Below, piece by piece: positions 24,011 to 42,699 of a stretch of 64,000 nucleotides of DNA. Position numbers and translations under genes: made by a program. The stretch lies in NCBI GenBank assembly GCA_036924285.1, contig JAYKYS010000005.1, positions 2,666,001-2,730,000 of the forward strand, in the 5' to 3' direction. Within the stretch, counting starts at the first letter, position 1; the number at the start of each line of letters is the position of its first letter. Under the pieces are notes generated by a model, which saw only the letters and a program-made list of their open reading frames with translations, had not been told where the DNA came from and did not search any database. This stretch comes from Asterella californica (lineage: Eukaryota; Streptophyta; Marchantiopsida; Marchantiales; Aytoniaceae).

Positions 24011-24117
24011 TGTCGTGCGCATACACATCGCTACACAACATACATCGCTGTCAGAGAAACACCACACATACACATAACACATGGACGATGTCATACACAT
24101 ACACAAGTGTACCACAA
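24011..24117 (-). repeat. Element O terminal repeat B2 (107 bp)
   Basis: This is the 3' terminal block of the element in sense orientation, bordered outside by the AGAG target duplication. It is identical by eye to B1, is absent from the 5' end, and is rich in CA/ACA words on the plus strand. The same block ends the related copy at 52,172. Confidence 0.85.
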
Positions 24118-24411
24118 TAATCTGAATACAGAGATTACCATCTCCAACACCACAACAAGGATTACTCACAAACGGTCAAGCCAAACCCACTCTAAACGCG
24201 AAGAGAATCCGGGTTACACTCAACTAGACTATCCACCATAGCCTGGAGCTTCAAGGCTCAACTCAAAGAACTAAGGCCTCCAAGCCCTACCTGCGAAGTT
24301 TACCCCTAGTGGACTCTCCTCCCAACTCGCCCTAACGGCACTAACGGCCTTACCGGGATGCGCCACTTCGCACTCGGTCAACCTAGCCGAGGTGCCCAAA
24401 CTGACGTGACA
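24118..24411 (-). repeat. Element O repeat A2 (294 bp)
   Basis: Identical by eye to A1 at 42,402-42,695. It lies between the two B blocks, separated from B1 by two bases. Because A2 is followed by B2 while A1 is followed by leader sequence, the element's repeats are split direct repeats, not ordinary LTRs. Confidence 0.85.
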
Positions 24412-24413
24412 GC

Positions 24414-24520
24414 TGTCGTGCGCATACACATCGCTACACAACATACATCGCTGTCAGAGAAACACCACACATACACATAACACATGGACGATGTCATACA
24501 CATACACAAGTGTACCACAA
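24414..24520 (-). repeat. Element O repeat B1 (107 bp), preceded by a purine run
   Basis: Same sequence as B2. In sense orientation it is directly preceded by a G-rich purine run (plus-strand complement at 24,521-24,531, tcgcccccc), a candidate polypurine tract. If that run primes plus-strand synthesis, the DNA copy would be expected to start with B, which is not what the genomic 5' end shows. Confidence 0.75.
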
Positions 24521-24692
24521 TCGCCCCCCTAACTGGCGGTTAGGTCCCTCTAACTCCAGATAGCTCCATATCCCAACTACGTGATACACACCTTCATGGG
24601 TGCAAGGATCAGGAGGCCGGGTGCTACATCGCCCCATCGTTAGTCGCCTGTCTGCAATCCATACCACGCAAAGATCTAATTGACTATCTCCG

Positions 24693-25502
24693 CTATATAC
24701 ATCGAGGACAAACCCACAGTCCAGTAGGAACTACACTGAGAGGTGGAGTCAAACATGACATGTGCCAACCTCTCGAACAACCATCACACACCAACATACG
24801 GGCTGCTCCGCTAGCAGACCCACACAACATACACCTCAAGCCCGCGCGTACAACTGCTAAGCTTGGATCGACGGTACCATCAATGTTGGGAAGATGACAT
24901 GGCGCGCAATTACGCACATGGTCCTTCCACACAACACCATCACGGCCCTCTAACATGAGTACTCCAGAAGGTAACACCTCACGCACTCGTAAAATAGTGC
25001 GCCCTGCGGTCACGTCCAACGTCGTCGGTGCAGTCTGCTGTAGATAGATATAATCGCCAGGATGAAACCTGCGAATCGACGGCCGATAACCTCCTCCTCG
25101 GATAGTCGCATACCGCAACGTGTCTCTATGCTGGGCAATCGCTAGGTTCTCAAAAGCCATAGGCATAACTCTCCGAAATGTCTCTGCTCGTTGAGAACAT
25201 GCTCTCACCCACATATCCGGGTCATCAAGGTCCAGCACCTCAACAGAATCACGACGAATGGCCGAAGGTAGATCTGGATCTCGGCCATACAATAAGAAAT
25301 ACGGTGAGAAGGAAGCCAAAGATGCTTGTCGGCTAAAACGGTAGCCCATAGCCAACCATGGTAACTGCACATCCCAGTCTCCCAAGTGGCCCTTCTGCAA
25401 GCCATACTTGCGCAATCCTCTCTTCACCGTCTGAACTACCCTCTCCGCCAAACCATCTGCCTCAGGATGATCTCGAGATGTAGTTCGATGATCAATCAGC
25501 GC
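24693..25502 (-). pseudogene. Element O integrase C-terminal part with PHD finger
   Basis: Continues the integrase frame after a TAG at 25,503-25,505. It starts with the end of the catalytic core (ADGLAER, with the third acidic residue of DDE), then the Gypsy-type core end (LLYGRDPDLP) and a C-terminal domain with the HPGDYIYL-like segment. The last 50 or so residues form a C4HC3 PHD finger: CMLC, CDGC, GWHMSC and CPRC, with the usual Trp three residues before the final CxxC. PHD fingers read histone H3 tails, so this domain may steer integration to particular chromatin, as chromodomains do in chromoviruses. The frame is open from here to its natural stop. Confidence 0.82.
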
Positions 25503-26930
25503 CTAATCACACAAGGCCTGAAACTCACCAAGGAACTCTGTACCTTGGTCTGTCAGCACTTCAGCTGGTGCTCCGAAACGACTCAGCACTCGATCTAAGA
25601 ACGCGTACGCCGTCCCTTCACTCGCCTTGTCTGGTAATGCCACCAACTCAATCCACTTGGAGAAGTGCTCCACCATCACCAACACATACCGGTGGTGACG
25701 TACGGTCAACGGTAAGGGTCCCGCAAAATCCAAACTCCAACGGTAACCCAACCCCATAATCGGTAAGGGGTGTAACTGTGGAGTAGGAGCATTAAACGAT
25801 GCTCGTACTCGATCACAAATCACACATCGTGCGACAAACTGTTGCACATCGATGTGCATACCACGCCACCAATATTGTCCTTGGAGTAAGCTATGCGTAC
25901 GCTTCACTCCAAAATGTCCCAACTCCTCATGGGCATGTCGTACTAACTGTGCCCTCTGGGATGGATGTGGCACTATCCGTACCCTCCCATCACCCCATAC
26001 TCGAAGTACATGTCGTCCTTCTCGTCGAAATCTCTTCGCTCGTTGAAGGACACGATCTCGCTCCTTGGCACTTACTGTGCCTACTACCACACCAGTACGT
26101 AGATACTTCATCACGGTCACATCATCATGGATATCTCGCTGGTCTGAAACACCATCTCCACCTTCAGGATCTGGAGACTCATCATCTACTCTCTGACCAG
26201 AGAAAGATACGACTTGGCCCTCCATACTAGAGTTCATGGCCAACACACAAAGAAAGGCAGATGCATGCCACCCTGGCACTATCTCCTCATCAACCTCGTC
26301 ATGCCATCGAGCCCCAGTCTGATCCTGCTGACTCGTGCACGGGTTGCGACTCAACCCATCGGCATCTAGGTTTGCAACTCCAGGTCTATGTACTACCTGG
26401 AAGTCATACTCCTGTAAGATCAGAGCCCATCGTGCAAGCTTCCCTGTAAGCTTGTCGGACTCCATCAACCACTTGAGCGGCTGGTGATCAGTGATGAGAG
26501 TAAAGGGGTTCCCAAACAGATAACATCGAAAGTGTGCAACAGCCCACACTGCCGCCAAACACTCTCCCTCATACGAACTATACCTCGCCTCCGCTGAATT
26601 GTTGGAGCGACTGGCATACGCCACCACGAACTCCTTTTTCTCATCATCATGCTGAGTCAGCACTGCTCCAAGTCCCAACATACTCCAATCGGTGTGCAGT
26701 TGGAAAGGACGCCCTCTAACGGGTCTCCTCAAGATGGGAGCAGATGTCAACCTATCCTTGAGCTCTACAAAAGCTCGCTCCTGCTCATCTCCCCACTGCC
26801 ACTCCTGGTCCACCTTCATCAGCTTGGTCAACGGCTTCGCAATTGCACTAAACCCTTTCACGTATCGACGATAGAAGTTCGCCAAACCAACAAATGCTCG
26901 AACTCGACTCACATCTGTGGGGCGTGGAAT
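25503..26930 (-). pseudogene. Element O RNase H and integrase N-terminal/core part
   Basis: Begins in the RT connection region (VRAFVGLANFYRRYVKGFS), then RNase H with LHTDWSMLGLGAVL, YEGECLAAVWAV and TDHQPLKWL. The integrase zinc-binding HHCC segment (ELGHFGVKRTH..RCVICD) follows, then the catalytic Asp residues in WSLDFAGPL and LTDQGTEF. The frame ends at an in-frame TAG before the third catalytic residue, which lies in the next segment in the same frame. Upstream, the coding sequence is cut by element I between RT and this part. On the minus strand the segment is in frame with RT when 8,953 bp are removed. Confidence 0.88.
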
Positions 26931-26934
26931 ACGT
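26931..26934. other. Target-site duplication (left) of element I
   Basis: ACGT directly precedes the TGTCG start of the left LTR and recurs at 35,884-35,887 after the right LTR. The related copy near 53,826 has the uninterrupted form (atacgtgcaatag), confirming the insertion point. Confidence 0.9.
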
Positions 26935-28260
26935 TGTCGTGATGTGAATCATTTCACAGTGTAAATAATTCACCTCTCTGTCAAGCGTTAGTCTCTCTGA
27001 GTGAAATTAGGACCTCAGAGAAGTCGACACTGGAGGATGTTATATATTTTGAGTCTTAGTAGGTTGATTACCATGTAGATGGACTTAAGCTCATGGGTTG
27101 TGATTACGTGTCGCCCATGCATGCTTCTTAGCGAGGTTAGTTCTCTTTCGGGATTACGCGTCGTTTTACATGTCTTCGCATGTAGTTTAGGGTCTATGCT
27201 GGCACTTTAGGGGCTTGACGTGGTAGCCTATGTGCAAATTCAAGTCACCACGTGGTTTTGGGACACAAAAGGACAGGGGAGTGAAGCTATGAACTCCCAT
27301 TGGTCCGATTTTGTCTTTAGTGTACCGCTAAACTTAGTAGTAGGGGTCTTAAGAGGAGTTCGAGCATTTGGTGAAAAATCTTCGAAATCTGAGAGCACAG
27401 GGAGACAGGGTTCGTCGTGCCAAGCACTGTCAGCGAAATTTTTGATCGATTTGGAGCAATAAAGAAGGAGTTATGGCTGATTGAAGTTCGATTTGTGCCA
27501 GAATTGCAGCACTTCTATTGATTTTGGGGTTTTCGGTGTCAATCGCAGTAGATTTGAGAAAATCGCTTCAAACCTTCGAGGTCTCGTTCCTTGGCAGCAG
27601 GGCTACGACTGTCCCCAAATTTTCATGTCAATTGAAATTGTGAGTAATTCAGGGCGACCGCTGAAGCAGAGGGGGTCCGAAAAGCTCTCAATCTAGAGCA
27701 CCAACTTCAGAGAGCGAGATCTGGAGTTCTGTGTACAATCAGGAGGCCCAACTTCACAGGAGTGTTCAGCAAGCTGTTTACTGCAAATCCTGTAAGAATC
27801 TTTGAAAGTGATCGAGCCAATTCTCTGTTCTAGGTCGAAATAGCTGTCTGGGTACCAGAAATTGCCGTAATTTCTCTGCTCAGAACGTTTCTACCCATAT
27901 CTCGACACTCTGATTTGATCTCAAGCTGAAACTTCGTGTGTATGGTCAGTAGGGCCTCATTTACATGTAGAAGGAGTTCTGAAGTCTGAACCATCGTATG
28001 TTTCTGATTCTGGACCGTTAAAGTTCGTTGTCTGACCTGATTACTGCTAGTCTGATCTGATCTTCGCTTCCTGAACATACTGGAGGATCCATTCGACCTG
28101 AGTGAGTGTCTATAGTGCCTTTATGACCTGAACCCTACCTCTGTATAGTAAGAAACCGTAGCCTGAAGTCCAACGCTTCCATGAGTAGACTAAACACAGC
28201 CTTCAAGATCTATCACAGCCAGAAGGTTCCGCCCTTCCCAGGAAAACTCTCAACTCGACA
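26935..28260 (+). repeat. Element I left (5') LTR
   Basis: 1,326 bp, TG..CA ended, and the same length as the right LTR. Single-base differences are visible in the 'gtagtttaggg', 'gtaccgctaaa', 'gtaggggtc', 'ttcgttgtc' and 'gtccaacg' segments. Short open frames on both strands recur identically in the other LTR and are not genes. Confidence 0.93.
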
Positions 28261-28262
28261 TC

Positions 28263-28280
28263 TGGTGCTTCCACTGAGAG
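28263..28280 (+). other. Candidate primer-binding site of element I
   Basis: Two bases after the LTR the sequence reads TGGTGCTTCCACTGAGAG. A primer-binding site should start with TGG, the complement of a tRNA 3' CCA. I cannot name the matching tRNA. Confidence 0.5.
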
Positions 28281-28329
28281 CTCTTGGGGTGATTGATTGA
28301 GAAGGTTGAGTTCACTACAAGGAGAAGAG

Positions 28330-30876
28330 ATGGATCGCAAGAGTGCTGCTGCTGCTACTTCTACGCCTGCTGCATCTACGTCTACTGCAGCTCCTTCTGT
28401 AGCACCAGCGGCTACAGCGACGTCTGCACCTGGTCTGGATACGGCTGAGATTCTGAAGACACTTGCGGCCCTGGTCCAACAACATCCGATCATTGGAGGG
28501 GGTGAGTTGAAGTCTACCAAGGCTCTGCAAGCAATTGTGAATAGATGCGGTAGATTTGAAGGTAGAGATATTTCTAGATATCTGCGTGAATACAGAGGAG
28601 AGATGGAACTAGTTAGAGTTACTGATGCTGAGATGATAGGGAGTTTTGAGTTAGCTGTAATCCCTGAGTTGCGGGACCAAGTTAGGGATGTACAGAGAAG
28701 AAATCTAGGTGTCTGGATGAGTTTTGAGCGATCTCTTCGAGAGGAGTTTCTCGAAGAAGATTCGGAGAGAGTTACTAGGAGGACGTTCTTAGACTGGGTT
28801 GAGCAGCAACTTGGTCGTATGATGAGCCTGAATGAGATGCTGAGAGAGTTTGATCGGAGATACCGACAACTTTCAACTCTAGAGCGCATAACTCTAGATG
28901 CTAGGAGAACTGAACTTTTTCTGCAAGCTACCGATGATGCTACGGCAGATCGGTTATGCTTTATGTTGGCTGACCGATCGGCTGAAGGAGGAGTTACTAC
29001 TGATTGGGGGAGAGTTGAGGATGCTGTTGCTGTATTGACGAGACAAAGGCGTGGAAGAGTGGCTGTGGGAGGACGTCCGCTTGCAGAAGTGACCGCTCAA
29101 CCTCGCACTGCTCCTCAAGTACAGCAACCTCCGGCTCCTGCTCCCAGACCTGTTGTACCGGCTGCAGTACCTTTGATGCCAATTGTGCCAGTTCCTGCAC
29201 AAAGGGCACCGGTTCAGAGACCTGCAGAGAACCATGGACAGCAGAACCAGATCGAAGATTTGATTCGGCAGATGAGAGAACTGAAGGTGGAGTTAGCTGG
29301 TCTGCAGAGAGAGCAGCCACCGGCGCCTGCTGCTGCACGTCCAGGAGGTGCTCCTGTTCGTAGATGTATATGGTGTGATAGTCAAGATCATTTCCGAGGA
29401 GACTGTCAAGAGCTCACGGCTGCTCTACGAGATGGTGTGGTTCGCTACCAGAACGGTAGGCTGCACCTTTCTTCTACTGGAGAGCCGCTAAGCACGCAGT
29501 TTGGACGAGGAGGCATGAGGAGTCTACCTCAGATTACAACTGCTGCAACTGTACATGCATTGATGGCACCACCGGTAAATCCTGATGTATATGCCGGTCA
29601 CATTGAAGTTTCTTCTAGTCCTACGTTGCTAGATAGGACTACTGAGAAGAAACCTGTTCAAGTTCCTTCTGAAGTACTGAAGAGAGGAGCAGAAACTATA
29701 CGTAGAGTCACAGGATGGGGAGATCCTGTTGATGCTGCGTCTATCAAAGCATTCTTGGACGTGGATAGACACGTTCACTGGCAGGATGCTTCTGTGGAGG
29801 AGAAGAGGCGGCGAGAAGCCTCTGAACTTGATACTGGAGTTCCAGAAGAGACTGGAGATAGACGGAGGGTCACAAGGAGGCGAGCAGCCCCTCCAGAAGA
29901 CGTCCCATCTACTTCTGCAGCTCCTCCACCTACACCATGTCCGATGGAGGACGTGCAGAGATCCCAGCAGGAGCCAACGACTGCTGGTAGACGGTTTACT
30001 GCCCAAGAGAAAGGGAAGGGACCGGCTTACAAGTTGGCAGCTGATATTGAGACTTCAACTGATCTCAAGAGCATCTTGGAGCAGAGGATACTTGACGCGC
30101 GAATCGAGTTTTCCCTTCGGGAGGTTCTTGGTATTGCTAAGAGGGAGTTTCACGAGCTGATCATCGACATCATCAAGCGGAAGAGACAGGTGATGTCCGA
30201 GCAAGTAGAAAGTCAGATGATTGATGTGATAGGAGCTTCTATGAATGATGCAGAGTTCGGGAAGGTGCATTTTCAGGAGGCTGATGATATAGAGTACCAG
30301 CAAGAAGCGTTAGTTGCTGGTACCAATACTGCTGAATTCGATGATGATGAAGCTGGCGATGAGAGTCCAGCTGCTGATAGTGACTTCAGGAAGAGACACT
30401 GGGCTCGTGCTACGACGGCTACACGAGTTCGTCTTGGAAGTCTTGAACCTGTTGCTGCGTTAGTTGATCACGGTTCTGAGATCAACATCATGTCACGAGA
30501 AGTGTACGAGAGAGGACAGTGGCCTATCGAATTGAACCATGGTTGGGTGCTACGAGCTGCAAACAACCAGAAGGGTGAGTTATACGGCGCTTGTCCCAAC
30601 GTGAAGGTGAAGCTGGGTGATGTAGAGGTAGATCAGCACTTCTTCGTGCAGTCTTCTGCTTCTTATCCTGTGATTCTTGGTCAACCTTATATCACTGCAG
30701 TTAGAATGGAGACGAAGGTGATGGACGATGGATCTCACTATGCTAGGATCCGTAGTCCAGATGACAAACGTTCTGTGCAGTTTTTGACCGTTCGTTCGAA
30801 CCACGAACGAAACAGGCAGACTTTGAGAGATTCTCCTATTTGTAGGAGCAAGGGTTTTCTGAAACCACTCTTGTAG
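28330..30876 (+). CDS. Element I gag-protease polyprotein (848 aa)
   Basis: Encodes the structural Gag and the protease. The first ATG in frame is at 28,330; an upstream TTG is not a likely start. An Ala/Ser/Thr-rich N-terminus is followed by a retrotransposon Gag domain (about residues 70-200), a Pro/Gln-rich linker, and a CCHC zinc knuckle at residues 346-359 (spacing C-x2-C-x4-H-x4-C) for RNA packaging. The C-terminal retropepsin has ALVDHGSEINIM around residues 711-722, with His in place of the usual Ser/Thr of the D-S/T-G active site, and a second conserved 'YPVILGQPY' segment. The frame ends 18 bases after a GGGTTTT heptamer that could shift ribosomes into pol. Confidence 0.88.
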   Translation: MDRKSAAAATSTPAASTSTAAPSVAPAATATSAPGLDTAEILKTLAALVQQHPIIGGGELKSTKALQAIVNRCGRFEGRDISRYLREYRGEMELVRVTDAEMIGSFELAVIPELRDQVRDVQRRNLGVWMSFERSLREEFLEEDSERVTRRTFLDWVEQQLGRMMSLNEMLREFDRRYRQLSTLERITLDARRTELFLQATDDATADRLCFMLADRSAEGGVTTDWGRVEDAVAVLTRQRRGRVAVGGRPLAEVTAQPRTAPQVQQPPAPAPRPVVPAAVPLMPIVPVPAQRAPVQRPAENHGQQNQIEDLIRQMRELKVELAGLQREQPPAPAAARPGGAPVRRCIWCDSQDHFRGDCQELTAALRDGVVRYQNGRLHLSSTGEPLSTQFGRGGMRSLPQITTAATVHALMAPPVNPDVYAGHIEVSSSPTLLDRTTEKKPVQVPSEVLKRGAETIRRVTGWGDPVDAASIKAFLDVDRHVHWQDASVEEKRRREASELDTGVPEETGDRRRVTRRRAAPPEDVPSTSAAPPPTPCPMEDVQRSQQEPTTAGRRFTAQEKGKGPAYKLAADIETSTDLKSILEQRILDARIEFSLREVLGIAKREFHELIIDIIKRKRQVMSEQVESQMIDVIGASMNDAEFGKVHFQEADDIEYQQEALVAGTNTAEFDDDEAGDESPAADSDFRKRHWARATTATRVRLGSLEPVAALVDHGSEINIMSREVYERGQWPIELNHGWVLRAANNQKGELYGACPNVKVKLGDVEVDQHFFVQSSASYPVILGQPYITAVRMETKVMDDGSHYARIRSPDDKRSVQFLTVRSNHERNRQTLRDSPICRSKGFLKPLL

Positions 30877-30920
30877 GACGGGATATCAAGAGTGATGGAT
30901 TTGATACTACTATGATCCCG
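30852..30920 (+). promoter_or_regulatory. Candidate -1 ribosomal frameshift signal of element I
   Basis: The slippery heptamer GGGTTTT at 30,852-30,858 is read in the gag frame as G GGT TTT, the canonical X XXY YYZ layout. After a 7-nt spacer, arm CACTCTTG (30,866-30,873) pairs perfectly with CAAGAGTG (30,887-30,894). Loop bases CGGGAT (30,879-30,884) can pair with ATCCCG (30,915-30,920), giving an H-type pseudoknot. A one-base backward slip here enters the pol frame, which is open from 30,846, and bypasses the gag stop at 30,874-30,876. Confidence 0.75.
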
Positions 30921-33900
30921 CTTGAGCAGCCTGTGGGATCACAGGTGATTGACGAAGAGGTTGCTCAAGATTCTGAAAACTGCTACACTGTACATAGTTG
31001 GAAATCAGGTTTGATGACTTTCAGTTCTGATGATTGGAGTGAGTTCACGCGTGTAGAGGATCTGAATGAAAAGAGTAGAAGGCAGATGGAGAAGTATGCA
31101 GAAAATCTACACTGTACAGGAGTTCTGAACGAAGGTGAGATGATTTTTGGTGTTTACGAGGAGTTTGTAGGTGTACAGTCTTTTGTTCGTTGGCTGGATG
31201 ATGTAGATAGGTTGATGGAGCAGATGGGAGGAAGGGTGCTGATCCCTATCCACTCTCGTAAGGTCTATGAGGAGATTACCTCGTGCTTGCAATCTCGTCC
31301 TCATCCGAGACTGGAGAGTGGATGGAAGGATGCAATCTGCTGGTGTGGCTCTCGTGAAGAAGCAGATGTTCACACCAAATACAAAACTGTAGCGAAGAAG
31401 GTGAAACCAGTGGCGACCCAATTACCTGTTGATTCACAGCAGCAGATGGAGTTAGCGGCCACTGAGCCTGTACTAAGAGATCCTAAACAGATAGGACACG
31501 AGTTTACTCAAGAGACACTCGAGCAGCTCCAGATAGGAGGGGGTGGCTTCTTGACTGAAGTGGAGAAACGAGCTTTTGAGCAGATGATAGTTAGCCATGG
31601 TAAGGCATTTTCTTTCTCAGCTGGAGAGATTGGTTGTGTGGATCCTAGTGTGATAGCTCCGATGGTTATCTTCACTGTTCCTCACGTACCTTGGGACTTG
31701 AAGCCGATTCCAGTCCCTCGTGCCTTGCTACCGAAGGTGATTGAGTTACTCAAGGAGAGGATGCGGATGGGTATTCTTGAACCATCTATGGCTCCGTACT
31801 CTAGCCGATGGTTCACAGTACCTAAGAAGACAGGAGCTTTACGCTTCATCCAAGACTTACAGCCTGCTAACAACATCACGATTCGAAATGTTGGAACAGG
31901 ACCTGTGGTTGATGAAGTAGCCGAGGCATTTGCTGGAAGATCTATCTATTCTATTGGAGATCTGTTTTCAGGTTATGATCAGTTTCAGCTTGCTTTGGAG
32001 AGTAGAGACTTGACTACCATGCGTACACCTTTGGGGTTGATGCGGATGTGTACTCTTCCTCAGGGTGCGACAAACTCAGTAGCTCATATGCAAAACGCGA
32101 TGCATAAGGTGTTACGAGAGTTTGTACCTGAGGTTACTATCCCATTTCTTGATGATATCTCCATGAAAGGCTGTCCGGTGGAGGACAAGGACGAGACTAT
32201 GACTGCTGATGGTTGCAGAAAGTTCGTTGCAGACCACATCCGAGATGTGGAGAAGATTCTGATGCGCTTGGAAGAAGTACACCTCACTCTGTCAGGTACC
32301 AAATCTCGTTTTGGAATGTCAGAGATCATAGTGGTGGGTCACTTATGCGGTACTTTTGGAAGACGACCGAACCCAGAGAAGGTAGATGCTATAGCAAGGA
32401 TAGCAGACTGTACCAACATCACTGAGGTTCGACGATTCTTAGGAGCTTGTGTGTTCTTTCGTGTGAGTATTCCTCATTATGCACACATTGCCGAACCTTT
32501 GTATGCACTTCTGAGAAAAGGCAAGAGGTTTACTTGGCGGCAAGAGCATCACGAGACGATGGAGCAGCTGAAAGAGATTCTGAAGTCTCCACCTGTGTTA
32601 AGGAGACTTAGCTACGAGAGCGGAAGACCTATCATACTGACTGTTGACACGAGCCCAAAGGCGATTGGATGGGCAGTTGGTCAGGAAGATGCAGAAGGTG
32701 TGCGGTTTGTTTCAAGGTTTGGAGCTCGGATCTTAACAGATAGACAGCATAACTATCCTCAAGTGAAGCGTGAGTTGTGGGGAGCTGTTACTGCTATGAA
32801 GGTAGATCGAGAGTTCTTGATAGGAGCTCATGTGATACTAGAAACAGATTGTTTGCCTTTGTTGGGTATGATAGCAAACTGCAATACACCAGACATAGCA
32901 ATGCTACGATGGATTGCTTATGTCCGGAGTCTGAACCCTGAGCTAAAGCATATAGCAGGGAAAGACAATCTAGTTGCAGATATGTTATCTAGGGCTTGCT
33001 ATACAGATGAAGAAGAGATGATTACTGAAGTCGAAGATGAGGAGAAGAGAGACGTTTGGTGCCAAGTTGGTCAGCAGACTTCAGACTTGGAACCACTGCC
33101 GTTCTACGAGGAGTTCTACACGGAAAAGTTCCGCGATATCGGCTATTATCTGAGTTTATTATGCAGAAGAGAAGGATGGAGTGATGCAGAGTTCAAGGAG
33201 ATCAGAAGAAAAGCGTACGGTTATCTTCTACGTGAAGGTTATCTGTGGAAACGTCCGAAGAGAAGAGATGGGATGTTGGCTAGAGTAGTGGATGATCAAC
33301 CGACGAAGCTGAATCTGCTGAAGGAGTTTCATGACACCTTGTGGGCTGGACACCGTGGAGTTTGGGCTACATACACGAAGATGAAGGAGCGATACTGGTG
33401 GAAGGGTTTGTATCAAGACGTAGTGGATTTTGTTGGGTCGTGTCTGCATTGCCAGTTCTACTCTAAAGTCCGTTACAGAGATGGACTTGTACCTACCTAT
33501 CCACCTAGTATTCATTTTTCGTGGGTCCTTGATCTTGTGATGATGCCGTCGGGACTGTGGGGGATGCGTTACTTGGTGTTGGCTCGAGAAGATCTCTCCA
33601 ACTACGTGGAGGGACGAGCACTACGAACGAAGACTACAGAGAACATATGTAGATTCGTGCTTGAGGATATCATCTGTCGTTATGGATCTATTGGAAGACT
33701 ACGAGCAGATAGGGGCGAGCTGAGAGGTGCAGAAGCGAAGGAGTTCTTTGCTCGTTATGGAGTAAAGCTTCGACTTACTACTGCCATGAATCCAGAAGGG
33801 ATTGGTAAGAGTGAACGAGGACACCCTTCTATTGTTCACGCTTTAGTGAAAGCATGTGATGGTAGGCCTAGAGAATGGCCGAGGCTACTTCCATTTGCTT

Positions 33901-34169
33901 TGTGGGCTGATAGAACTACACATTGTACCACGACTGGCTATATGCCAGTTGAGCTTATGCTGGGGCAGAAACCGATCATGCCTGCTGAGGAGGACTTTCC
34001 TACGTGGGCTACGCTACCGTGGGAAGATGGTATAGATCATACTTCACTCTTTGCTTTACGAACTAGACAGCTGGAGCGAAGGGAGGAAGATCTTGCTGAG
34101 ACGCAAGAGAAGCTGAAGGTGGCTCGAGTTAGAAACAAGGAGCGTTTCGACAAGACTCACCGACTATGA
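30912..34169 (+). CDS. Element I pol: RT, RNase H and integrase (1,085 aa to an in-frame TGA)
   Basis: The first ATG is at 30,912, but the frame is open from 30,846, so entry by frameshift fits better than re-initiation. RT includes VPKKTGALRFIQDLQPAN, LPQGATNS and the catalytic FLDD at residues 412-415. RNase H follows (LTVDTSPKAIGWAVG, RELWGAV, LETDCLPLL, then DNLVADMLSRA). Integrase has the zinc-binding HH..CLHC segment near residues 805-845 and DDE residues in VLDLVMM, RADRGE and GKSERGH. The TGA at 34,167-34,169 is followed in the same frame by the rest of the integrase C-terminal domain, so it looks like a nonsense mutation at a CGA-type codon. Confidence 0.9.
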   Translation: MIPLEQPVGSQVIDEEVAQDSENCYTVHSWKSGLMTFSSDDWSEFTRVEDLNEKSRRQMEKYAENLHCTGVLNEGEMIFGVYEEFVGVQSFVRWLDDVDRLMEQMGGRVLIPIHSRKVYEEITSCLQSRPHPRLESGWKDAICWCGSREEADVHTKYKTVAKKVKPVATQLPVDSQQQMELAATEPVLRDPKQIGHEFTQETLEQLQIGGGGFLTEVEKRAFEQMIVSHGKAFSFSAGEIGCVDPSVIAPMVIFTVPHVPWDLKPIPVPRALLPKVIELLKERMRMGILEPSMAPYSSRWFTVPKKTGALRFIQDLQPANNITIRNVGTGPVVDEVAEAFAGRSIYSIGDLFSGYDQFQLALESRDLTTMRTPLGLMRMCTLPQGATNSVAHMQNAMHKVLREFVPEVTIPFLDDISMKGCPVEDKDETMTADGCRKFVADHIRDVEKILMRLEEVHLTLSGTKSRFGMSEIIVVGHLCGTFGRRPNPEKVDAIARIADCTNITEVRRFLGACVFFRVSIPHYAHIAEPLYALLRKGKRFTWRQEHHETMEQLKEILKSPPVLRRLSYESGRPIILTVDTSPKAIGWAVGQEDAEGVRFVSRFGARILTDRQHNYPQVKRELWGAVTAMKVDREFLIGAHVILETDCLPLLGMIANCNTPDIAMLRWIAYVRSLNPELKHIAGKDNLVADMLSRACYTDEEEMITEVEDEEKRDVWCQVGQQTSDLEPLPFYEEFYTEKFRDIGYYLSLLCRREGWSDAEFKEIRRKAYGYLLREGYLWKRPKRRDGMLARVVDDQPTKLNLLKEFHDTLWAGHRGVWATYTKMKERYWWKGLYQDVVDFVGSCLHCQFYSKVRYRDGLVPTYPPSIHFSWVLDLVMMPSGLWGMRYLVLAREDLSNYVEGRALRTKTTENICRFVLEDIICRYGSIGRLRADRGELRGAEAKEFFARYGVKLRLTTAMNPEGIGKSERGHPSIVHALVKACDGRPREWPRLLPFALWADRTTHCTTTGYMPVELMLGQKPIMPAEEDFPTWATLPWEDGIDHTSLFALRTRQLERREEDLAETQEKLKVARVRNKERFDKTHRL

Positions 34170-34513
34170 CCAAAGCCAATACGTGTTGGTGATTGGGTTC
34201 TGGTGTATGATAGCACGCTAGAGAACCAGCATTCTACACTTCGTAAGTTCTCGCGAAGATGGTTCGGGCCTTATGTTGTGCTAGATGTTTATGAGAATGC
34301 CACTTATAGTTTACGTGAGTTGGATGGTACTCCTTTGAAACTATCTGTGGCTGGCAAACGAGTGAAGTTGTTCAAACAACGTGGAGGATCAGTAGATTTG
34401 TTCAACTTTCTAGAGTCTGAGCAGAGGATAACAAGAGATGACGACAACTCGGCTACTGAAGAGGCTGAGGCGGAGGAGAGTGACGATGATGATGAAACGA
34501 CAGAAGGATGAAG
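34170..34513 (+). pseudogene. Element I integrase C-terminal tail after the in-frame TGA
   Basis: Same frame as pol. It contains VGDWVLVYDS, then RKFSRRWFGPYVVLDVYENATYSL, the SH3-like fold seen at the end of Gypsy integrases, and an acidic tail (EAEAEESDDDDETTEG). No chromodomain is visible. It is not independently expressed as far as I can tell; it is the natural end of pol cut off by the TGA. Confidence 0.8.
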
Positions 34514-34540
34514 AGGTTGGCACATGCCAGAGGATGTGCA

Positions 34541-34557
34541 GGTTTGGAGGGGGTGGA
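34541..34557 (+). other. Candidate polypurine tract of element I
   Basis: The sequence ggtttggagggggtgga lies directly against the TGTCG start of the right LTR, where plus-strand synthesis is primed in LTR elements. Confidence 0.7.
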
Positions 34558-35883
34558 TGTCGTGATGTGAATCATTTCACAGTGTAAATAATTCACCTCT
34601 CTGTCAAGCGTTAGTCTCTCTGAGTGAAATTAGGACCTCAGAGAAGTCGACACTGGAGGATGTTATATATTTTGAGTCTTAGTAGGTTGATTACCATGTA
34701 GATGGACTTAAGCTCATGGGTTGTGATTACGTGTCGCCCATGCATGCTTCTTAGCGAGGTTAGTTCTCTTTCGGGATTACGCGTCGTTTTACATGTCTTC
34801 GCATGTAGTTTATGGTCTATGCTGGCACTTTAGGGGCTTGACGTGGTAGCCTATGTGCAAATTCAAGTCACCACGTGGTTTTGGGACACAAAAGGACAGG
34901 GGAGTGAAGCTATGAACTCCCATTGGTCCGATTTTGTCTTTAGTGTACCTCTAAACTTAGTAGTAGAGGTCTTAAGAGGAGTTCGAGCATTTGGTGAAAA
35001 ATCTTCGAAATCTGAGAGCACAGGGAGACAGGGTTCGTCGTGCCAAGCACTGTCAGCGAAATTTTTGATCGATTTGGAGCAATAAAGAAGGAGTTATGGC
35101 TGATTGAAGTTCGATTTGTGCCAGAATTGCAGCACTTCTATTGATTTTGGGGTTTTCGGTGTCAATCGCAGTAGATTTGAGAAAATCGCTTCAAACCTTC
35201 GAGGTCTCGTTCCTTGGCAGCAGGGCTACGACTGTCCCCAAATTTTCATGTCAATTGAAATTGTGAGTAATTCAGGGCGACCGCTGAAGCAGAGGGGGTC
35301 CGAAAAGCTCTCAATCTAGAGCACCAACTTCAGAGAGCGAGATCTGGAGTTCTGTGTACAATCAGGAGGCCCAACTTCACAGGAGTGTTCAGCAAGCTGT
35401 TTACTGCAAATCCTGTAAGAATCTTTGAAAGTGATCGAGCCAATTCTCTGTTCTAGGTCGAAATAGCTGTCTGGGTACCAGAAATTGCCGTAATTTCTCT
35501 GCTCAGAACGTTTCTACCCATATCTCGACACTCTGATTTGATCTCAAGCTGAAACTTCGTGTGTATGGTCAGTAGGGCCTCATTTACATGTAGAAGGAGT
35601 TCTGAAGTCTGAACCATCGTATGTTTCTGATTCTGGACCGTTAAAGTTCGCTGTCTGACCTGATTACTGCTAGTCTGATCTGATCTTCGCTTCCTGAACA
35701 TACTGGAGGATCCATTCGACCTGAGTGAGTGTCTATAGTGCCTTTATGACCTGAACCCTACCTCTGTATAGTAAGAAACCGTAGCCTGAAGTCTAACGCT
35801 TCCATGAGTAGACTAAACACAGCCTTCAAGATCTATCACAGCCAGAAGGTTCCGCCCTTCCCAGGAAAACTCTCAACTCGACA
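34558..35883 (+). repeat. Element I right (3') LTR
   Basis: 1,326 bp, nearly identical to the left LTR and followed by the ACGT target duplication. Its last bases are fused in frame to element O's RT on the minus strand, adding a short foreign tail (about 13 residues) to that open frame. Confidence 0.93.
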
Positions 35884-36771
35884 ACGTGCAATAGCCTCAA
35901 CCTTCGTCTGTTGAACACCCAATCCACCTGGATAGATGGTGTGGCCCAGATACTCTACCAACTCCTGGAAGAACTTACACTTCCCAGGGTGTAACTTCAA
36001 CCCATGAGCTCTCAACCGCTCAAACACATCCCGTAAGTGTCTCTCGTGCTCCTCCACTGTAGCACTATAGACTAAGATGTCGTCAATATAACATCTGACA
36101 AAATCCAATCCTGTTAGGATTCTGTCCATCACCCTTTGGAACTCAGCAGGGGCGTTCTTCAACCCAAATGGTAAGAACCGCCACTGATACAAACAATCCT
36201 TGCCGTGAGAGTCAATTCCCCAGAATGCTGTCTTGGACTTATCTTCTTCTCTCACTGGCAACTGATGATACCCTGCTCGAAGATCCAAAGTACTGAAGAC
36301 CTTCACATGCCCCACTGCATCAAAGATCTCCTCAGGTGTCGGCATGGCATACTTATCGGACTTCGTCTGCCGATTGATAGGACGATAGTCCCCACACATC
36401 CGTCTATCTGTGTAGTTGCCATACATATCCTTCTTGGCTGGCATAACTATGGCAGATGCATACTCTCCATGCGACATCTCCACCAACCCAGCCTCCAACA
36501 AGTCTTGAGTCCGACTCTGGATCAAGGCTCTCTCCATGTCACTGTACCTGTAAGGACGTCGAAAGATTGGCGTGTCATTAGCCAAGTCGATCCGTATACC
36601 AGGTCCCTTCAAGGTACCCAAATCCTTCATACTGAAGGCAAAACAATTCCTGTAGCTCTTCAGGAATCTTTGGACTCTTCGTCTCTCCTCTCCTATAAGC
36701 TTGGGTCCGATCTCCGGCTCCTAAGTATCCTCTGTCACCATGCTAGAGGTAGAAGACGAAGTCGTTGACTG
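35884..36771 (-). pseudogene. Element O reverse transcriptase
   Basis: Follows the conserved UAG in the same frame. A linker (about 17 codons) leads to a TAG at 36,721-36,723, where the copy near 62.7 kb has a Trp codon and the copy near 54.7 kb has TGA; both stops are single G-to-A changes. RT then runs from 'GPKLIGEERRRVQRF' through MCGDYRPINRQT, STLDLRAGYHQL and LPFGLKNAPAEFQRVM to the catalytic YIDD (in CYIDDILVY) and HPGKCKFFQ. The coding sequence is cut after 'QQTKVEAIAR' by element I. The fold is complete through the palm; the thumb and connection are on the other side of the insertion. Confidence 0.9.
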
Positions 36772-36774
36772 CTA
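36766..36774 (-). promoter_or_regulatory. Candidate UAG readthrough signal between methyltransferase and RT
   Basis: In sense the element reads AGA TAG CAG TCA: a UAG followed by CARYYA, the tobamovirus-type readthrough context. The same stop occurs at 54,712-54,714 (TAG CAA TCA) and 62,680-62,682 (TAG CAG TCA). CAA versus CAG is the only change and keeps the consensus. RT follows in the same frame, so occasional readthrough would give a gag-protease-methyltransferase-pol fusion in limited amount, which is what retroelements need. Confidence 0.72.
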
Positions 36775-38050
36775 TCTTGCAGCCTCTGGAGCAGTTTCCT
36801 TCTGCTCACCACCAACAACCTCCACCGCTACTGTGTGTAAAACTTCTGCAGTTCTAGCTGCAAACTCCACACTCTCTCCTATGACATCCCATGATGTCCA
36901 AGGATGACGAACTCCACGTGCCTCGCCCCCAGCCTTTGCCTCCACCGACCCGGTAGGCAAAGAGCTCAAGAGTGCTCGAGCAGTAACACCCGTCGATCGC
37001 ATCCGACGCTGCTCAGCCAATCCAAGGCTAACAATCCATGTCAAGCAATTCAAGTCCATTGCTTGACCCAATACTTGACGACGTGAAGCCTCCGACACCG
37101 AAGCTACTGCCGTCGTACCCGTAGTGAAACCCATCGCTCGCTCTCTCTCATCGGCATTGGGCTCCACCAACTGCCGTAATTGAGCATCCCACACAAGCCC
37201 AGGTCCTCCATCTCTGTAAGCATGTGACGCTGGAAAGCTTACCAATGTGGGTAATGCTACCATGGGCCGTCCCACTAGGTTCACCACTGCCATGGGTGAC
37301 CTATCGACGACTCTCACTACTTGAGATCGTCGTCCTGCATCCAAGATGCTATCAACCGTGAGGTGCGCTGGTCGTCTCACTCCATCGTGTGCGCGCTTAA
37401 GCACCTCTCTCGGTAACAAGTTCGTCCACCACAACGGTGGACGATGTGCACGAGATCCCACTCTCGCTGCATCCAACAACACTGCTGGTCCAACCCAAGA
37501 CCGCACTTGGTGCACACTCGCCATCATCTGTGTACGAGCATCACCCAACAAAGGAACATTCTCCAAGATGTATGCTGGAGAATCCACCTGATGCATCTGG
37601 AGATGTCGTAGGATCCGTAACATCTCCCAGAACATCCTAGATCGCGGGTCATGTAAACCCTGACCTCTCCCTGCACGCGTGTGACCTTGACATGGCCATC
37701 CGGCTATCACCAAGTGAATGGTGCCCACAAACGTAAGATCCTGCGCCCCCAGCAACGAAATATCCGACGGTAATGCTTGCTGGTATCCTCTAACAGCTGA
37801 TATGGGCAACAACTCAGGATATCTTTGCACCAAACGTGCCACATGTCGCAATGAGATGCGTCTCGCAATCTCATCTCTCTCCACATACAAGTATCGCTGT
37901 ACTTGTATACCTGCCTGCAATACCGCAGCCAAACCTGTGCTGATCCCTCCAAACAGCTCCAGCACACATACACCTTCCTCTGGATACTGCCACACAATGG
38001 GAGTCGTATCCAACGGTGATAAGGTCACAGGGCCAGTGGCAGGAACAACC
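36772..38050 (-). CDS. Element O DNMT3-like cytosine-C5 DNA methyltransferase domain
   Basis: C-terminal third of the frame that starts near 40,245. It transfers methyl groups to cytosine C5. Motif I is VLELFGGISTGLAAVLQAG (about residue 757) and is followed by IQVQRYLYVERDE; motif IV is IAGWPCQG with the catalytic Cys (about residue 851); motif VI is YILENVPLL (about 894); a motif-VIII-like SRAHRPPLWWTNL follows; and ERERAMGFTTGTT plus RRQVLGQAMD correspond to motifs IX-X. The short target-recognition region, the 'GIxTGL..GIQVxRY' wording and the AHRxxxxWTNL block resemble DNMT3/DRM-type enzymes more than DNMT1 or CMT. The domain is open and all key residues are present, so it could be active even though other parts of the element are broken. 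Confidence 0.88.
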
Positions 38051-40248
38051 CTTTGTTCCTCTACTGGTGGTACAAAAGTTTCACTCCAAGCCTGCTGCAC
38101 CAACTGATCAGCATACTGCTGCAACCCTCCACTCGAACTCCAGAGTGGAACATCCAAGGCAGATGGTACTAACGTAGACATGCTAGGCATGTCCTCCACC
38201 TCCTCATAGATCGGAGTATCCTCCGCATGGGCATTACCCTCCAACAACTCGTCCGGCCAAGTGATGATCGAACTGAACCTTGCAACGGATGCCATCGTTC
38301 CTGGTGTAGGCTCCGTCGTCCCAACTCTAGCACTGAACCGCACTGGTAAGCGGCTCACTCGTCCCTCACCGGACCGCCAACCTGGTCTATAAGATGCTGT
38401 CTCTGCCCAATAGTCAATCACGAACCCCATAGGGTACAACACAGCACCTCCCACCAATACATCATAAGACTCTGCGGCTGTAACAATGGCCTTGGCCTTC
38501 ACCATAGAGCCATCCGTGGGGTGATCTGGCCGAACTCTCACCGTCAACATCTCCCGTGTCATGTGTAGAGCCGTACCTCCTGATCCCCCTAGAGATGTCT
38601 GCAACTGGAATGGACATCTCTCTATCTCAGACTTCTTCAGACCCAAACCAATACACGCCGCCTTTCCCAACATCAACGGTTGGGCTCCAGAGTCTAACAA
38701 GACCTTCTGGGGTCGATACACTTTCCCTGAAGGTGCCACCAAACAGAAGATACCACTTCTGTTGTCCAACAACACCACACCTGGTGCCAAACTAGCACGG
38801 TCAATCGCCGGCCTAGCTGGTAACTCATCTAACCTAGCAGCCGCCGCTTGCCAAGTACCACTGGTAGCTGTCCTGATCCTCGACTCCATGGACACGTCTA
38901 CCGTCTCTTGCTGAACTACTTCAGCACTAGAGGTAACTACATCCTCGCTCTCACTGAGCGTGGCCGCCAACTGGAACACTGGAGCCAAGTTGACTCCCAA
39001 TGCTCTCATATCCGTGGCTGAAAATAGTGGGGCTCGCAAAACTGCTGTAGCCGCCCCCAACATCGGGTTCGACGTCGCATCCACAAACGTCGAAGGTGGG
39101 CTCACATCACACCCACTCCTGGATGTCGATGCCTCCAACTCTACTGCACCATCGGTAGGTCGTTTAGGAACCATAGATGTGGTCCTCAACGCCTCCGATA
39201 ACGTGAACGACTGGGGAAGCCTGGCTTGTCTACCAGCCTCCCCGCGTTGTAGATCCAACTCCACTGACGCACCTCGTGGCTCAGAGACACGTACTGCACC
39301 TCTAGTCACTGCTGCAGATGCCTCAATCTGCGCCACACCAGCCATGAAGTCGAAGTCACCTCCTTCTCCTCCATAAGACGTGGAAGCCTCTGTTCCACTC
39401 GATCTCCGCTGAGCCATAGCCATACTAGCTATCCTCTGCTCCAACTGCTCAATCCGAGCAGCCATACCTGCTTCTGATGTCGTAGCAGGCGGTGGACCGA
39501 TCGGTCCTCTCCCAGGTGCTGGACCTCTACCTCCAGCTCGACCACCACGGCTTCCCTGAGCTCCTCCGCCTCGTCCACGATCAGCCTTCCCTTGCCGCAA
39601 CTCGGGATGGAGATCAAAACAACGGTCACTACTGTGACCAGGTCGTCCGCAATGCTCACATTGCCTAGGTACTGCTGGAGACGTCCCTGATGTCCCTGAC
39701 GTCTCATAACCTCTCCTCTGTGGACAGTCCCTCTGCTGATGAGGACCATCACACGTCCAGCAAGGACCCGCTTGCTGCTGACTAGAGAAGGACGGCATGG
39801 GCTTCTGCCCACCAGATCCTCCTACACCTCCCTGCGATCGTGACTGCTCTGCACGATCCTCACCACCACCACCACCACGCTGTTGCGTAGCCTGTGATCC
39901 TCGAGAAGAGGTGGTCGCTCCATGTGGTGTCTCCTTGCTGAACCCAGCAACCACCACCCTCTCCTCCACCATGTTGAGCTCAATCCGCTCAGCCAGACTA
40001 AAGACAACCGCCAACGTCGGAGCGGTATCTCTAAGAAGAGTAGCATCTCTAACTCTCCTACGCAGCTCCCGGTCTAGTATCCCATACCAGAACTGGACTG
40101 CCTGTGCTTCCGTCACCCCTTGGGTAACGCTGATCAACCGCCTCATGCGAGTAAATGCCTCGCGTAGGCTCTCTCCAGTCTTCCGCTGGAACTCCTGCAG
40201 ACTCCTCAACTTGTCGGTCCGCACACCCTGATAGTTCTTCCTCAAACA
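38051..40248 (-). CDS. Element O gag (main part), two zinc knuckles and retropepsin
   Basis: N-terminal two thirds of the same open frame (1,157 codons in all, ending at the UAG at 36,772). It begins inside Gag, directly after a TAA, with LRSLQEFQRKTGESLREAFTRMRRL and a Gag helical region. Two zinc knuckles follow near residues 163 and 197: CWTC..H..C (C-x2-C-x3-H-x4-C, one residue short) and CEHCGRPGHSSDRC (canonical). An Arg/Gly-rich stretch and a short coiled coil (ARIEQLEQRIAS) come next. A retropepsin has VLLDSGAQPLML near residue 515 and YDVLVGGAVLYPMGF. The reported first residue is a TTG, so this is not a genuine start; translation should begin in the upstream segment. Confidence 0.85.
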
Positions 40249-40860
40249 TTAGAAGAACTGAACCACAGGGTTAAACCCTGGTGGTATCCCGCTCATACTA
40301 CCACCTGCTCCACTACCTGTGGACGCACCGCTGGTAGTAGGTACTCCGCCACCTGCGGCTGTACCACTGCTACTGACACCCGAACTCGCAGGTGCTACGC
40401 CTCCCGAAACTGCGCCAGTAGTGATAGAAACGTAGTTGGGAGACCAATGTTGTCTCCACAACTCGATCTCAACACTGTAATCTCGCCTGAACTCATGATA
40501 ATCGTCCATCGGCGATCCCTCCAAGTGCTGGAACAAACCCTTCCACGCCATGAAGGGTGTAAACAGCTGTGGGTTCCGCATCTGCTGCAGATCGCACCAA
40601 CTGTCGAACTCCTGGATGAAGTCATCCAGCTCAATGGTACCAACTGTACCCGAGTAACGTCGAGGCCCCTTCGTGGCCCCATAGATCTCGTCCATGTCCC
40701 ACAACAACGGTGTGGTGACACTAGACTCACCACCAGAAAACGCGTTGTCTGCGTCTGACTCGTCCTCTGGAACAACTGACGGCAATGGTGTAGGTAGTCG
40801 GTACCTCACCCCACTCCGTGTATACCCACTATCGGAGAAGTCCCCACCAGAACCTCCCGA
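40249..40860 (-). pseudogene. Element O gag N-terminal part
   Basis: Same frame as the main gag segment, ended by a TAA at 40,249-40,251 where the copy near 59.25 kb has CAC. Contains 'YSGTVGTIELDDFIQEFDSWCDLQ' and 'FTPFMAWKGLFQHLEG', typical of Gypsy Gag, then a Gly/Ser/Thr-rich linker. The likely original start is the ATG of 'MRYRLPTPLP' seen in the 58.7-kb copy; here that codon is GTG (40,807-40,809), so this copy has lost its start. A further in-frame stop lies about 60 bases upstream. Confidence 0.75.
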
Positions 40861-42401
40861 GAACTCCGTGATGAGAGAATCCCGCTAGCACACTCCCCAA
40901 CCGGAAGTCGCAATCTCCGTCACCACCATAATCACCACTTGCCTAACCCCGCTCCTACTGAGCTCACCTATCCCCTACTAGGACGGTCAAGGTAAGGGCA
41001 ACCTGTACCTGCCATCACCACAGGCAGCCTCTCACGGTCTGTTGGTCGTCACTCCAACCGCACCGTGAGAGAGACAAAGGTAGTCTGACTGGTCCGCAAC
41101 TCCAGCCTCACTACCGACAGCACACTGGAGTGAACTCACTCCGGAAATCAAGCGCCAACACAAGCAAACGCGGCGCACAAACAGGAAGCAGAATATGGAG
41201 GGGTTCCAACCACAAGAAGTCCAAACGATAACCCTCCACACTCAAACATTCACATAAAGAGAAATCCAGCCCCACCCGGACTGACGTCTCCTCGTCGGTT
41301 ACCACATGCACAATATATGATCACCAACTGTCGTAACTGACACTGGAGGTCACTAACTAGATGTCCACACCTCTAGTAGCTCCAAAAACATCCACGTGGT
41401 AGCTCTACTAGCTCACCCAAGACAACTGCCACCAACTGCCTACATACGCGTCTCTACGGTATAGACAAATACTACCACAACTATAGCTTGCCCCTAATAC
41501 TATGGGGTCGCCTTACCACTCCTCTAGGAACGTGCGAGAAGGTCTCCTACTACCTTAAACAAGTCCATAAGTACTTGCACGCATCCCTGTAGGACACCAA
41601 GAGCTATTGGTCTAGTGGTAAAGCCAAAGCTAAGACTAAAAAGTCAGGAGTCCAGGTCCAGAAATAGTGTTGGGATGGGTGACCAGCTGGTTTTACCCTT
41701 CCCACACACTAGAACTTGGATACCTCTCTCACGCACGCCAGCAAGCTGGCTTGCGGCGGGCGCGGGCTCGGGCTCAGGCTCAGCTCCGCTCCGCCTCCGC
41801 ACTCTCGCACTCCGCTCTCACGCCTCCGCACTCACGCACCTCTGCTCTTCGAAGCCTCTAAACGATTCGCAAATGCACCACACACACTTCGCGGATGCAC
41901 ACACACACAAAACAACTACTAAACTCGAGTTTCCTCACGAAATTGAGCCAAAATCTGACGTAACTAGCCTTTTAGTGCTTGCGGGTTTCACGGCAGCCAA
42001 CTTCGACATGCCAGAACTTCTTCAATCCTTGGCCAAACTCCACGAAACTTAGTGCGCTAGAATCGTCTCTCCAATGCGCTTCCAAAGAGTCCACTCCGGC
42101 CCGACATTGACAAGTATTTCAGCTGCTACGCCCAAACGCGCAATCCGGCTCCAACAACACACTTCAAGAACATTCCGCAAAATTTCTGCAGCGCTTCCGC
42201 ATGACAGAAATCTCCACTCGACCCCAATCAACAGCAAATCGATCTGCAACAGCAATGTAGCACGGCGCCCACACACCTCGATCACAGCTCCAAACAATCA
42301 ACCACGAACAACAACGCCCGAAGATACCAGCGGACGATTTCTGATTTCAGATCTGCGAGCTCTTACTGAACTCCGCCTCGACCTGCACTGAGTTCTTTGA
42401 G
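40861..42401 (-). other. Element O 5' leader
   Basis: About 1.5 kb between repeat A1 and gag with no long sense frame. It contains a plus-strand segment with Pol III promoter-like blocks, a C-rich tract of 'ctccgcactc'-like repeats at about 41,760-41,850, and a junction with A1 that lacks a recognisable TGG-type primer-binding site. The same leader organisation is found at 57,051-58,697 in the related copy, where C-to-T drift is obvious. Confidence 0.6.
41600..41700 (+). promoter_or_regulatory. Pol III promoter-like segment, antisense in element O leader
   Basis: TGGTCTAGTGGTA at 41,608-41,620 equals the A-box region of plant tRNA-Pro genes, and GGATGGGTGACC at 41,673-41,684, within 'tagtgttgggatgggtgacc', equals the C-box region of plant 5S rRNA. 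A TTTT at 41,691-41,694 could terminate Pol III. It lies on the strand opposite to the element's genes. No complete tRNA or 5S gene can be folded from it. The counterpart in the 56.8-64.0-kb copy is at about 57,835-57,911, minus strand, with a few changes. Confidence 0.5.
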
Positions 42402-42695
42402 TAATCTGAATACAGAGATTACCATCTCCAACACCACAACAAGGATTACTCACAAACGGTCAAGCCAAACCCACTCTAAACGCGAAGAGAATCCGGGTTA
42501 CACTCAACTAGACTATCCACCATAGCCTGGAGCTTCAAGGCTCAACTCAAAGAACTAAGGCCTCCAAGCCCTACCTGCGAAGTTTACCCCTAGTGGACTC
42601 TCCTCCCAACTCGCCCTAACGGCACTAACGGCCTTACCGGGATGCGCCACTTCGCACTCGGTCAACCTAGCCGAGGTGCCCAAACTGACGTGACA
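42402..42695 (-). repeat. Element O repeat A1 (294 bp, sense 5' end)
   Basis: Starts TGTCACGTCAG in sense and is bordered by the AGAG target duplication at 42,696-42,699. Identical to A2 by eye. It ends at 'cagatta' and is followed by leader, not by a B block. An 8-nt inverted pair, GAGTAATC inside A1 and GATTACTC across its junction with the leader, could form a hairpin in the transcript. Confidence 0.85.
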
Positions 42696-42699
42696 AGAG

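Follow-up and report, generated by a model that had tools for sequence, protein, structure and literature searches.

Why a Ty3/Gypsy retrotransposon in a liverwort should carry a DNA cytosine methyltransferase (DNMT), and how such an element enters the genome, are the questions raised by one locus in the window, a stretch of 64,000 nucleotides from Asterella californica. The original prediction placed a DNMT3-like domain beside gag and protease in a Ty3/Gypsy element, and this was borne out: a profile search of the translated region 36,772-38,050 for a C5 methyltransferase gave a Pfam DNMT match, both the catalytic motifs and the fold are those of the DNMT3 family, and reverse transcriptase (RT), RNaseH, and integrase domains are present. 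The single open frame foreseen for gag, protease, and DNMT stood in part, as one frame holds all three but is interrupted in the window copy. The two decayed window relatives that had been noticed do carry the domain (Table 1); the second is seemingly inserted into the protease region of the first (window 56760 onward). The stop ahead of RT, the split repeats, and the integration footprint described below go beyond the original prediction.

The element consists of repeat A (294 nt), a body, repeat B (107 nt), the dinucleotide GC, and further copies of A and B. CTCT direct repeats flank the window copy (42696-42699 and 24007-24010) as a 4-bp target duplication. The chance of a 12-mer such as the complement shared by the candidate primer site and A is approximately 1.7e-5, and another candidate primer pair, TGAGTAATC/GATTACTCA, was dropped in favour of the 12-nt pair ACTCAAAGAACT/AGTTCTTTGAGT. 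The nested Gypsy-type element is very young and sits in the parent between RT and RNaseH. Elsewhere in the window, a plant-type S-adenosylmethionine decarboxylase gene is present in two copies (6112-7359 and 20795-22198, + strand) approximately 14.7 kb apart with repeated flanks; its nearest named match is from Calypogeia fissa, at 70%.

Table 1. Positions in the window of the DNMT-bearing element, its parts, and related insertions.
Feature	Position	Strand	Remarks
Parent element, A-body-B-GC-A-B, split by nested element	24011..42695	-	ends TGTCACG...GCACGACA
Repeat A, left copy, promoter side	42402..42695	-	294 nt identical to 24118-24411
Candidate self-primer AGTTCTTTGAGT, A position 140, predicted RNA start	42545..42556	-	12-nt complement of primer site
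Candidate primer-binding site ACTCAAAGAACT	42391..42402	-	exact complement of AGTTCTTTGAGT within A; kept at four right-end joints
gag N-terminal part of ORF1	40249..40884	-	in window copy, stop cuts off rest of ORF1
ORF1 remainder: gag C-terminus with zinc knuckles, protease, DNMT	36772..40248	-	DNMT by Pfam match; knuckle and protease motifs by direct reading
DSG protease active-site motif	38686..38694	-	read directly
DNMT3-type methyltransferase fold, domain residues 20-350	37000..37992	-	
In-frame UAG (UAG CAG UCA) between ORF1 and ORF2, candidate programmed readthrough	36772..36774	-	
Reverse transcriptase part of ORF2	35884..36720	-	PF00078 1.6e-33
Nested second Gypsy-type element (DUF4100 gag, RT, integrase)	26935..35883	+	LTRs 1326 bp, 99.6% identical; ACGT both sides
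RNaseH, integrase (H2C2, rve), C-terminal part of ORF2	24693..26934	-	PF17917, PF17921, PF00665
PHD finger, ORF2 C-terminus behind integrase	24699..24833	-	PF00628 4.2e-11
Polypurine tract (PPT) AGGGGGGCG	24522..24530	-	directly upstream of B1; kept in joints of L076, L083
Repeat B1	24414..24520	-	
Internal palindrome GACAGCTGTC, predicted integrase site within LTR	24408..24417	-	read directly
Repeat A2	24118..24411	-	
Repeat B2, reached via A/B joint	24011..24117	-	
DNMT domain, decayed relative 1	54715..55979	-	end at 52183-52652 retains B-GC-A-B
DNMT domain, decayed relative 2	61414..62679	+	

The DNMT frame ends in the same nine bases, UAG CAG UCA, in the window copy and in 20/20 other copies (TAGCAGTCA), and in all of these 20 the second frame (RT-RNaseH-integrase-PHD) continues in the same frame behind the UAG. 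One window relative has the same nine bases and the other has TAGCAATCA (UAG CAA UCA). The TMV-type stop readthrough motif is UAG CAR YYA, and both versions fit it. This likeness suggests that pol may be made by stop readthrough, and since the DNMT lies upstream of the UAG it would then be produced at the dosage of Gag. Coding capacity is retained in many of the other copies, with ORF1 a single open frame of 1368-1371 amino acids in 13/20 and ORF2 fully open (1038-1041 amino acids) in 12/20. The zinc knuckle is matched by Pfam in a sister copy at only 0.81, and neither ORF1 nor ORF2 has a Pfam match to a tyrosine recombinase.

In the 517-Mb genome, 99 of 4783 candidates were scored, each spanning the whole query at 97-100% identity, and the DNMT domain is free of internal stops in 81 of them. 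Exact patterns found 383 A/B joints and 309 A-primer-site joints genome-wide, and the backward-read controls gave 0. Named relatives of ORF1 come from Marchantia, Calypogeia, and Sphagnum, while the 120 ORF2 relatives listed of 489 include Calypogeia, Marchantia, Riccia, Closterium, and Klebsormidium and, more distantly, Tanacetum and a pseudoscorpion. A PHD finger is precomputed for many of these 120, and the DNMT domain is also found in relatives from Marchantia, Calypogeia, Sphagnum, Closterium, Klebsormidium, and metagenomes. Viral contigs of 19-79 kb hold 16 loci with 26-48% identity over part of the DNMT domain.

The original prediction was correct in recalling retrotransposon-borne DNMTs from dinoflagellates and charophytes (de Mendoza et al. 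2018, PMC5890265), and it had left open whether the present family matches any of those reported. The Klebsormidium one does: K. nitens P0097 (KFL_009030040), presumably one of the copies of PMC5890265, has the order protease-DNMT-RT-RNaseH-integrase, is 47% identical across 90% of ORF2, and sits within the DNMT/PHD clade of the RT tree (clade support 0.856, with several deep nodes weak). The DNMT-bearing family in A. californica is a high-copy one of the KnitGypsy-Dnmt3 lineage.

Two gene orders are found among the relatives, one with DNMT ahead of RT, as in P0097, and the other with DNMT between RNaseH and integrase. The latter was seen in P0094, P0101, P0112, and others, mostly from metagenomes. 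In the DNMT tree, whose root is a DNMT3A stretch of just 165 aa and from which a length filter removed P0097, the elements with the second order all form one clade together with two RT-less fragments (support 0.88). In the RT tree, which leaves out Closterium P0123 and Sphagnum P0020, a single clade (0.86) takes in every DNMT-bearing sequence and excludes the ordinary Gypsy elements that were sampled; many other ORFs in this clade have no DNMT themselves, and theirs may lie in a separate ORF, as in the present family, or be absent. Because the second-order elements share one clade and the DNMT bearers share one RT clade, the trees favour a single capture followed by a later move of the domain, with modest deep supports.

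Variation among 21 copies was used to ask how the DNMT is maintained, neutral change being expected to give 2.34 replacements for each silent one. Variants shared by at least two copies comprise 16 silent and 6 replacement changes in the DNMT domain (ratio to neutral approximately 0.16), and singletons comprise 11 silent and 24 replacement changes (approximately 0.93). The sample was picked by protein similarity to the window copy, a choice that lowers replacement differences in general but should distort the shared-versus-private contrast less. On these counts, the DNMT protein is maintained in the source lineages and insertions drift afterwards, as the private changes look neutral. With L019 and L021 dropped as decayed or interrupted, private changes fall preferentially on C in CHG, CG, and CHH contexts, with per-site rates for C>T/G>A of 0.047/0.081 (CG), 0.093/0.110 (CHG), and 0.041/0.045 (CHH). 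The CG changes comprise 16 C>T versus 28 G>A at 344 sites each, and those in CHG and CHH are about even. A deamination scar of APOBEC-like or strand-specific type was considered and set aside, as a clear strand bias was not found in the per-site C>T and G>A rates. The pattern fits the scar expected from plant-type host methylation (CG, CHG, CHH) of silenced copies. Per site, the private C>T and G>A changes of L009-L028 peak in CHG, which suggests strong host CHG methylation of the element family.

The ends of 60 copies (L009-L028 and L065-L104) were surveyed. At the 3' side, 49 copies end in B-GC-A/B, four stop at B1 (L012, L016, L087, L088), two end in inverted A (L065, L092), one is inverted (L100), and four are illegible (L021, L067, L082, L099). 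The 5' sequence was in the sample for all copies but 27 of the 40 in L065-L104, and the 5' end was not found in L017, L019, L065, L084, L087, L092, and L097; in all 26 copies with a legible 5' start, the flank is followed directly by A. Wherever both flanks could be read (24 copies, including L012, L016, and L088), the insertion has a 4-bp target duplication and TGTC...GACA ends. In 8 of 15 copies in which they were compared, A1 and A2 match throughout 292 nt, as LTR pairs do. The motif GACA-NN-TGTCACG has GC as its spacer in 52/52 occurrences in the 60 copies, and splitting this LTR-internal palindrome, GACA-GC-TGTC, in half yields the TGTC and GACA seen at the ends of inserted copies. Other structures with target duplications are plain A-body-B (L016, L088) and A/A'-body-B (L012).

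In 35 of the 49 copies the A/B joint reads CAGATT/ATTGTGG without extra bases, while in the remaining 14 the joint contains 1-2 additional bases, filler, or PPT sequence, the PPT being kept in L076 and L083. Non-standard joints likewise number 14 among the first 100 listed of the 383 genome-wide. Because 35 of the 49 are alike, it is the other 14, together with the tree, that carry the case for fresh joining. L024, with a 22-nt filler, differs by less than 0.1% in its body from L023, which has the standard joint; L026 and L027 (approximately 0.4% apart in the body) and L012, with its A/A' joint, and L010 (approximately 0.35%) also differ in their joints. Joint types do not track the body tree, and on this comparison the A/B joint is variable and not simply inherited. 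The fillers of L121 and L122 hold pieces of both ends, as judged by eye, as templated end joining would leave. At four inverted joints (L065, L092, L125, L127), ACTCAAAGAACT, the 12 nt behind A1, is kept and the body sequence is left within 0-2 nt; L125 and L127 were picked by a pattern needing 11 of these 12 nt, while L065 and L092 come from the unselected sample. These four comprise tail-to-tail, snap-back, and other products, in which the right end is joined to inverted element DNA. Because remnants of the PPT and of the primer copy occur in the joints, the joined ends look like the two ends of the reverse transcript, i.e., the PPT end and the primer-site end, which are the tips of a B-GC-A LTR.

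DDE integrases are understood as acting on the tips of linear cDNA. The element has the hallmarks of a canonical LTR retrotransposon, namely PPT, primer site, TG..CA ends, and a target duplication within 4-6 bp, but a complete LTR at both ends is nearly absent. The whole LTR followed by the primer site has 5 exact matches genome-wide versus 309 A-primer-site joints, and four of the five are right ends joined to inverted element DNA, which leaves L126 as the sole B-GC-A-body. Low sensitivity is unlikely to be the cause, as an analogous pattern recovers 41 of the 49 known B-GC-A/B copies. Use of the tips, or equally frequent cutting of the two LTRs, should make a whole LTR left of the body common; canonical LTR integration is therefore disfavoured.

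Instead, the insertions probably derive from an ordinary LTR cDNA that integrase cuts within the left LTR, with the outer ends sealed by the host and pol made by readthrough. Every step of this proposed route is read from insertion scars. The transcript would start within A, and its first 12 nt would prime at the site just behind A. Ordinary reverse transcription would then yield a linear cDNA with two complete LTRs (B-GC-A, approximately 402 nt). A DDE-type integrase would bypass the cDNA tips and make one staggered cut at GACA^GC^TGTC inside the left LTR; with its 2-nt stagger, this cut would yield both processed ends, TGTC and GACA, at once, and both would be joined to the target. Host end joining of the outer tips would give the A/B joint. 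The left LTR acquires its second strand earlier in reverse transcription than the right one, and it may be preferred for this reason. The DNMT, at Gag dosage, would be packed with the RNA. The plain A-body-B copies with target duplications (L016, L088) would need another order of cuts.

Those two copies resemble opened 1-LTR circles and lend weight to a reading that shares the internal cut and differs in order: the ends would be joined first, into a 2-LTR circle or a head-to-tail concatemer, and integrase would then open the internal palindrome. The final structure would be the same, and the tail-to-tail product L065 shows that cDNA ends can be joined to each other. A 2-LTR circle has two equal sites, yet the right-cut product, A/BA-body-B, is nearly absent (1 vs 309), and B is not found behind the left A in the 25 copies in which the left A is legible to its inner border. 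Furthermore, a 7-nt unit in the filler of L024 matches a target-element junction that exists only after insertion, which hints at joining after insertion, although this is one case with a chance of approximately 1% by hand estimate. Joining before integration is a serious contender, with somewhat less than an even chance of being right.

The uniformity of 35 of the 49 joints could also mean that an ordinary LTR element had its ends rearranged once and is now copied as such. Against this, L024 and L023 have different joints at less than 0.1% body difference, the PPT and primer-copy remnants mark the joined ends as products of reverse transcription, and the same layout is reported for Klebsormidium (PMC5890265); a frozen rearrangement is quite improbable. 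The A-coding-B-A-B arrangement, which is of the DIRS type and was noted as such for the Klebsormidium element (PMC5890265), is present here and would be expected of a DIRS/PAT-like element whose circle is closed by templated joining and integrated by a tyrosine recombinase. That enzyme is unmatched in either ORF, while rve and H2C2 are present; target duplications of 4 bp were seen in 24/24 copies, whereas DIRS1 integration gives none (PMC3266345); and the joint varies instead of being inherited. A DIRS/PAT-like route thus has hardly any probability left, and a cut inside the left LTR followed by host sealing accounts better for the insertions.

As for the DNMT itself, our best guess is that its targets are CG sites in the newly made DNA of the element itself, in its cut or joined form. 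This guess is based on the position of the domain, its intact motifs, and the selection pattern. The mutation pattern, which fits host methylation in CG, CHG, and CHH, gives no clear pointer to self-methylation. It is rather unlikely, but conceivable, that the enzyme acts on host chromatin, on the insertion target, or on RNA instead of its own DNA: the PHD finger, which might serve as a histone reader, stands behind integrase here and in many of the 120 listed ORF2 relatives, and LINE-borne DNMTs have been proposed to methylate RNA (PMC5890265), but the location of the DNMT in the gag frame would favour a role inside the particle. The damage to the window copy could be taken as the sign of a decayed passenger. 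This is most improbable, given that 81 of the 99 scored copies are stop-free in the domain, that shared variants are mostly silent, and that the domain persists in the relatives from Marchantia to Klebsormidium and the metagenomes. For KnitGypsy-Dnmt3, the isolated domain gave no methylation in yeast; human DNMT3B also failed there, and the authors therefore call the result inconclusive (PMC5890265). Extending the internal cut to the lineage, we tentatively propose, at a little under even chances, that the whole streptophyte DNMT-Ty3/Gypsy lineage, from Klebsormidium to liverworts, integrates by a single palindrome cut with the tips sealed by the host at each insertion, and that the DNMT at Gag dosage may belong to this route, e.g., by labelling the new DNA, or one of its LTRs, during the time it is held open.

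That retrotransposons can capture a DNMT was already known; finding such a capture at high copy in a land plant, with the DNMT ahead of a probable readthrough stop, widens its scope. The family offers a system with abundant recent copies, and hundreds of insertion scars are consistent with internal cutting of the LTR and repair of the tips by the host. An old question, whether integrase can use an internal two-fold symmetric LTR site, thus becomes directly testable. Such a cut would also explain how an integrase element could come to have split repeats, a point on which the available text of PMC5890265 offers no mechanism. Collectively, the DNMT capture belongs to a kind already known but differs in expression layout, and as far as the open-access literature goes, the integration footprint appears undescribed: titles and abstracts listed by searches of that literature contain no report of a DNMT-Gypsy element in liverworts or of internal-cut integration, and nothing on the present family is found in the accessible parts of PMC5784723, PMC6453930, PMC8616336, and PMC12440569. 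A 2025 survey places some DNMT3 members in retrotransposons and, in its section on these, names no liverwort elements (PMC12344493). An orchid Gypsy element is reported to carry a demethylase domain (PMC9289625).

Compared to known systems, the element is closest to KnitGypsy-Dnmt3 of Klebsormidium nitens, which is described with DIRS-like repeats, Gypsy domains, and purifying selection (de Mendoza et al. 2018, PMC5890265). The two share Ty3/Gypsy domains, a DNMT3-class domain, A-coding-B-A-B repeats (49/60 copies here), and purifying selection, and P0097 shares the RT clade and the order protease-DNMT-RT-RNaseH-integrase. They differ in that the DNMT of KnitGypsy-Dnmt3 is described in the Pol ORF (PMC5890265), whereas here a UAG parts DNMT from RT. 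With the UAG present in 20/20 copies and no stop in P0097, the element described here counts as a variant of the kind, distinct in element type. Copy number is lower in K. nitens than in Symbiodinium (PMC5890265), whereas exact patterns gave 309-383 copies or parts here; the main text of that paper makes no mention of target site, PHD, circular, or readthrough. The dinoflagellate elements SymbioDIRS-Dnmt3 and SymbioLINE-Dnmt are likewise retrotransposons carrying a DNMT, with split repeats in the DIRS type, but they use a tyrosine recombinase or LINE machinery and represent independent captures according to PMC5890265. Self-priming of the Tf1/Sushi type, also described for plant elements, likewise has a primer site that can pair with sequence within the repeat (PMC6317226); here the candidate complement is 12 nt and the RNA start is a predicted one. 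Finally, in the Panganiban-Temin 2-LTR circle model of 1984, integrase acts on a joined, two-fold symmetric LTR junction, a model later replaced for retroviruses by linear DNA as the substrate (PMC11054761). If the proposed route is true, the element would be a working natural counterpart of this discarded circle-junction model, with the difference that its symmetric site, with a 2-nt spacer, is encoded inside the LTR.
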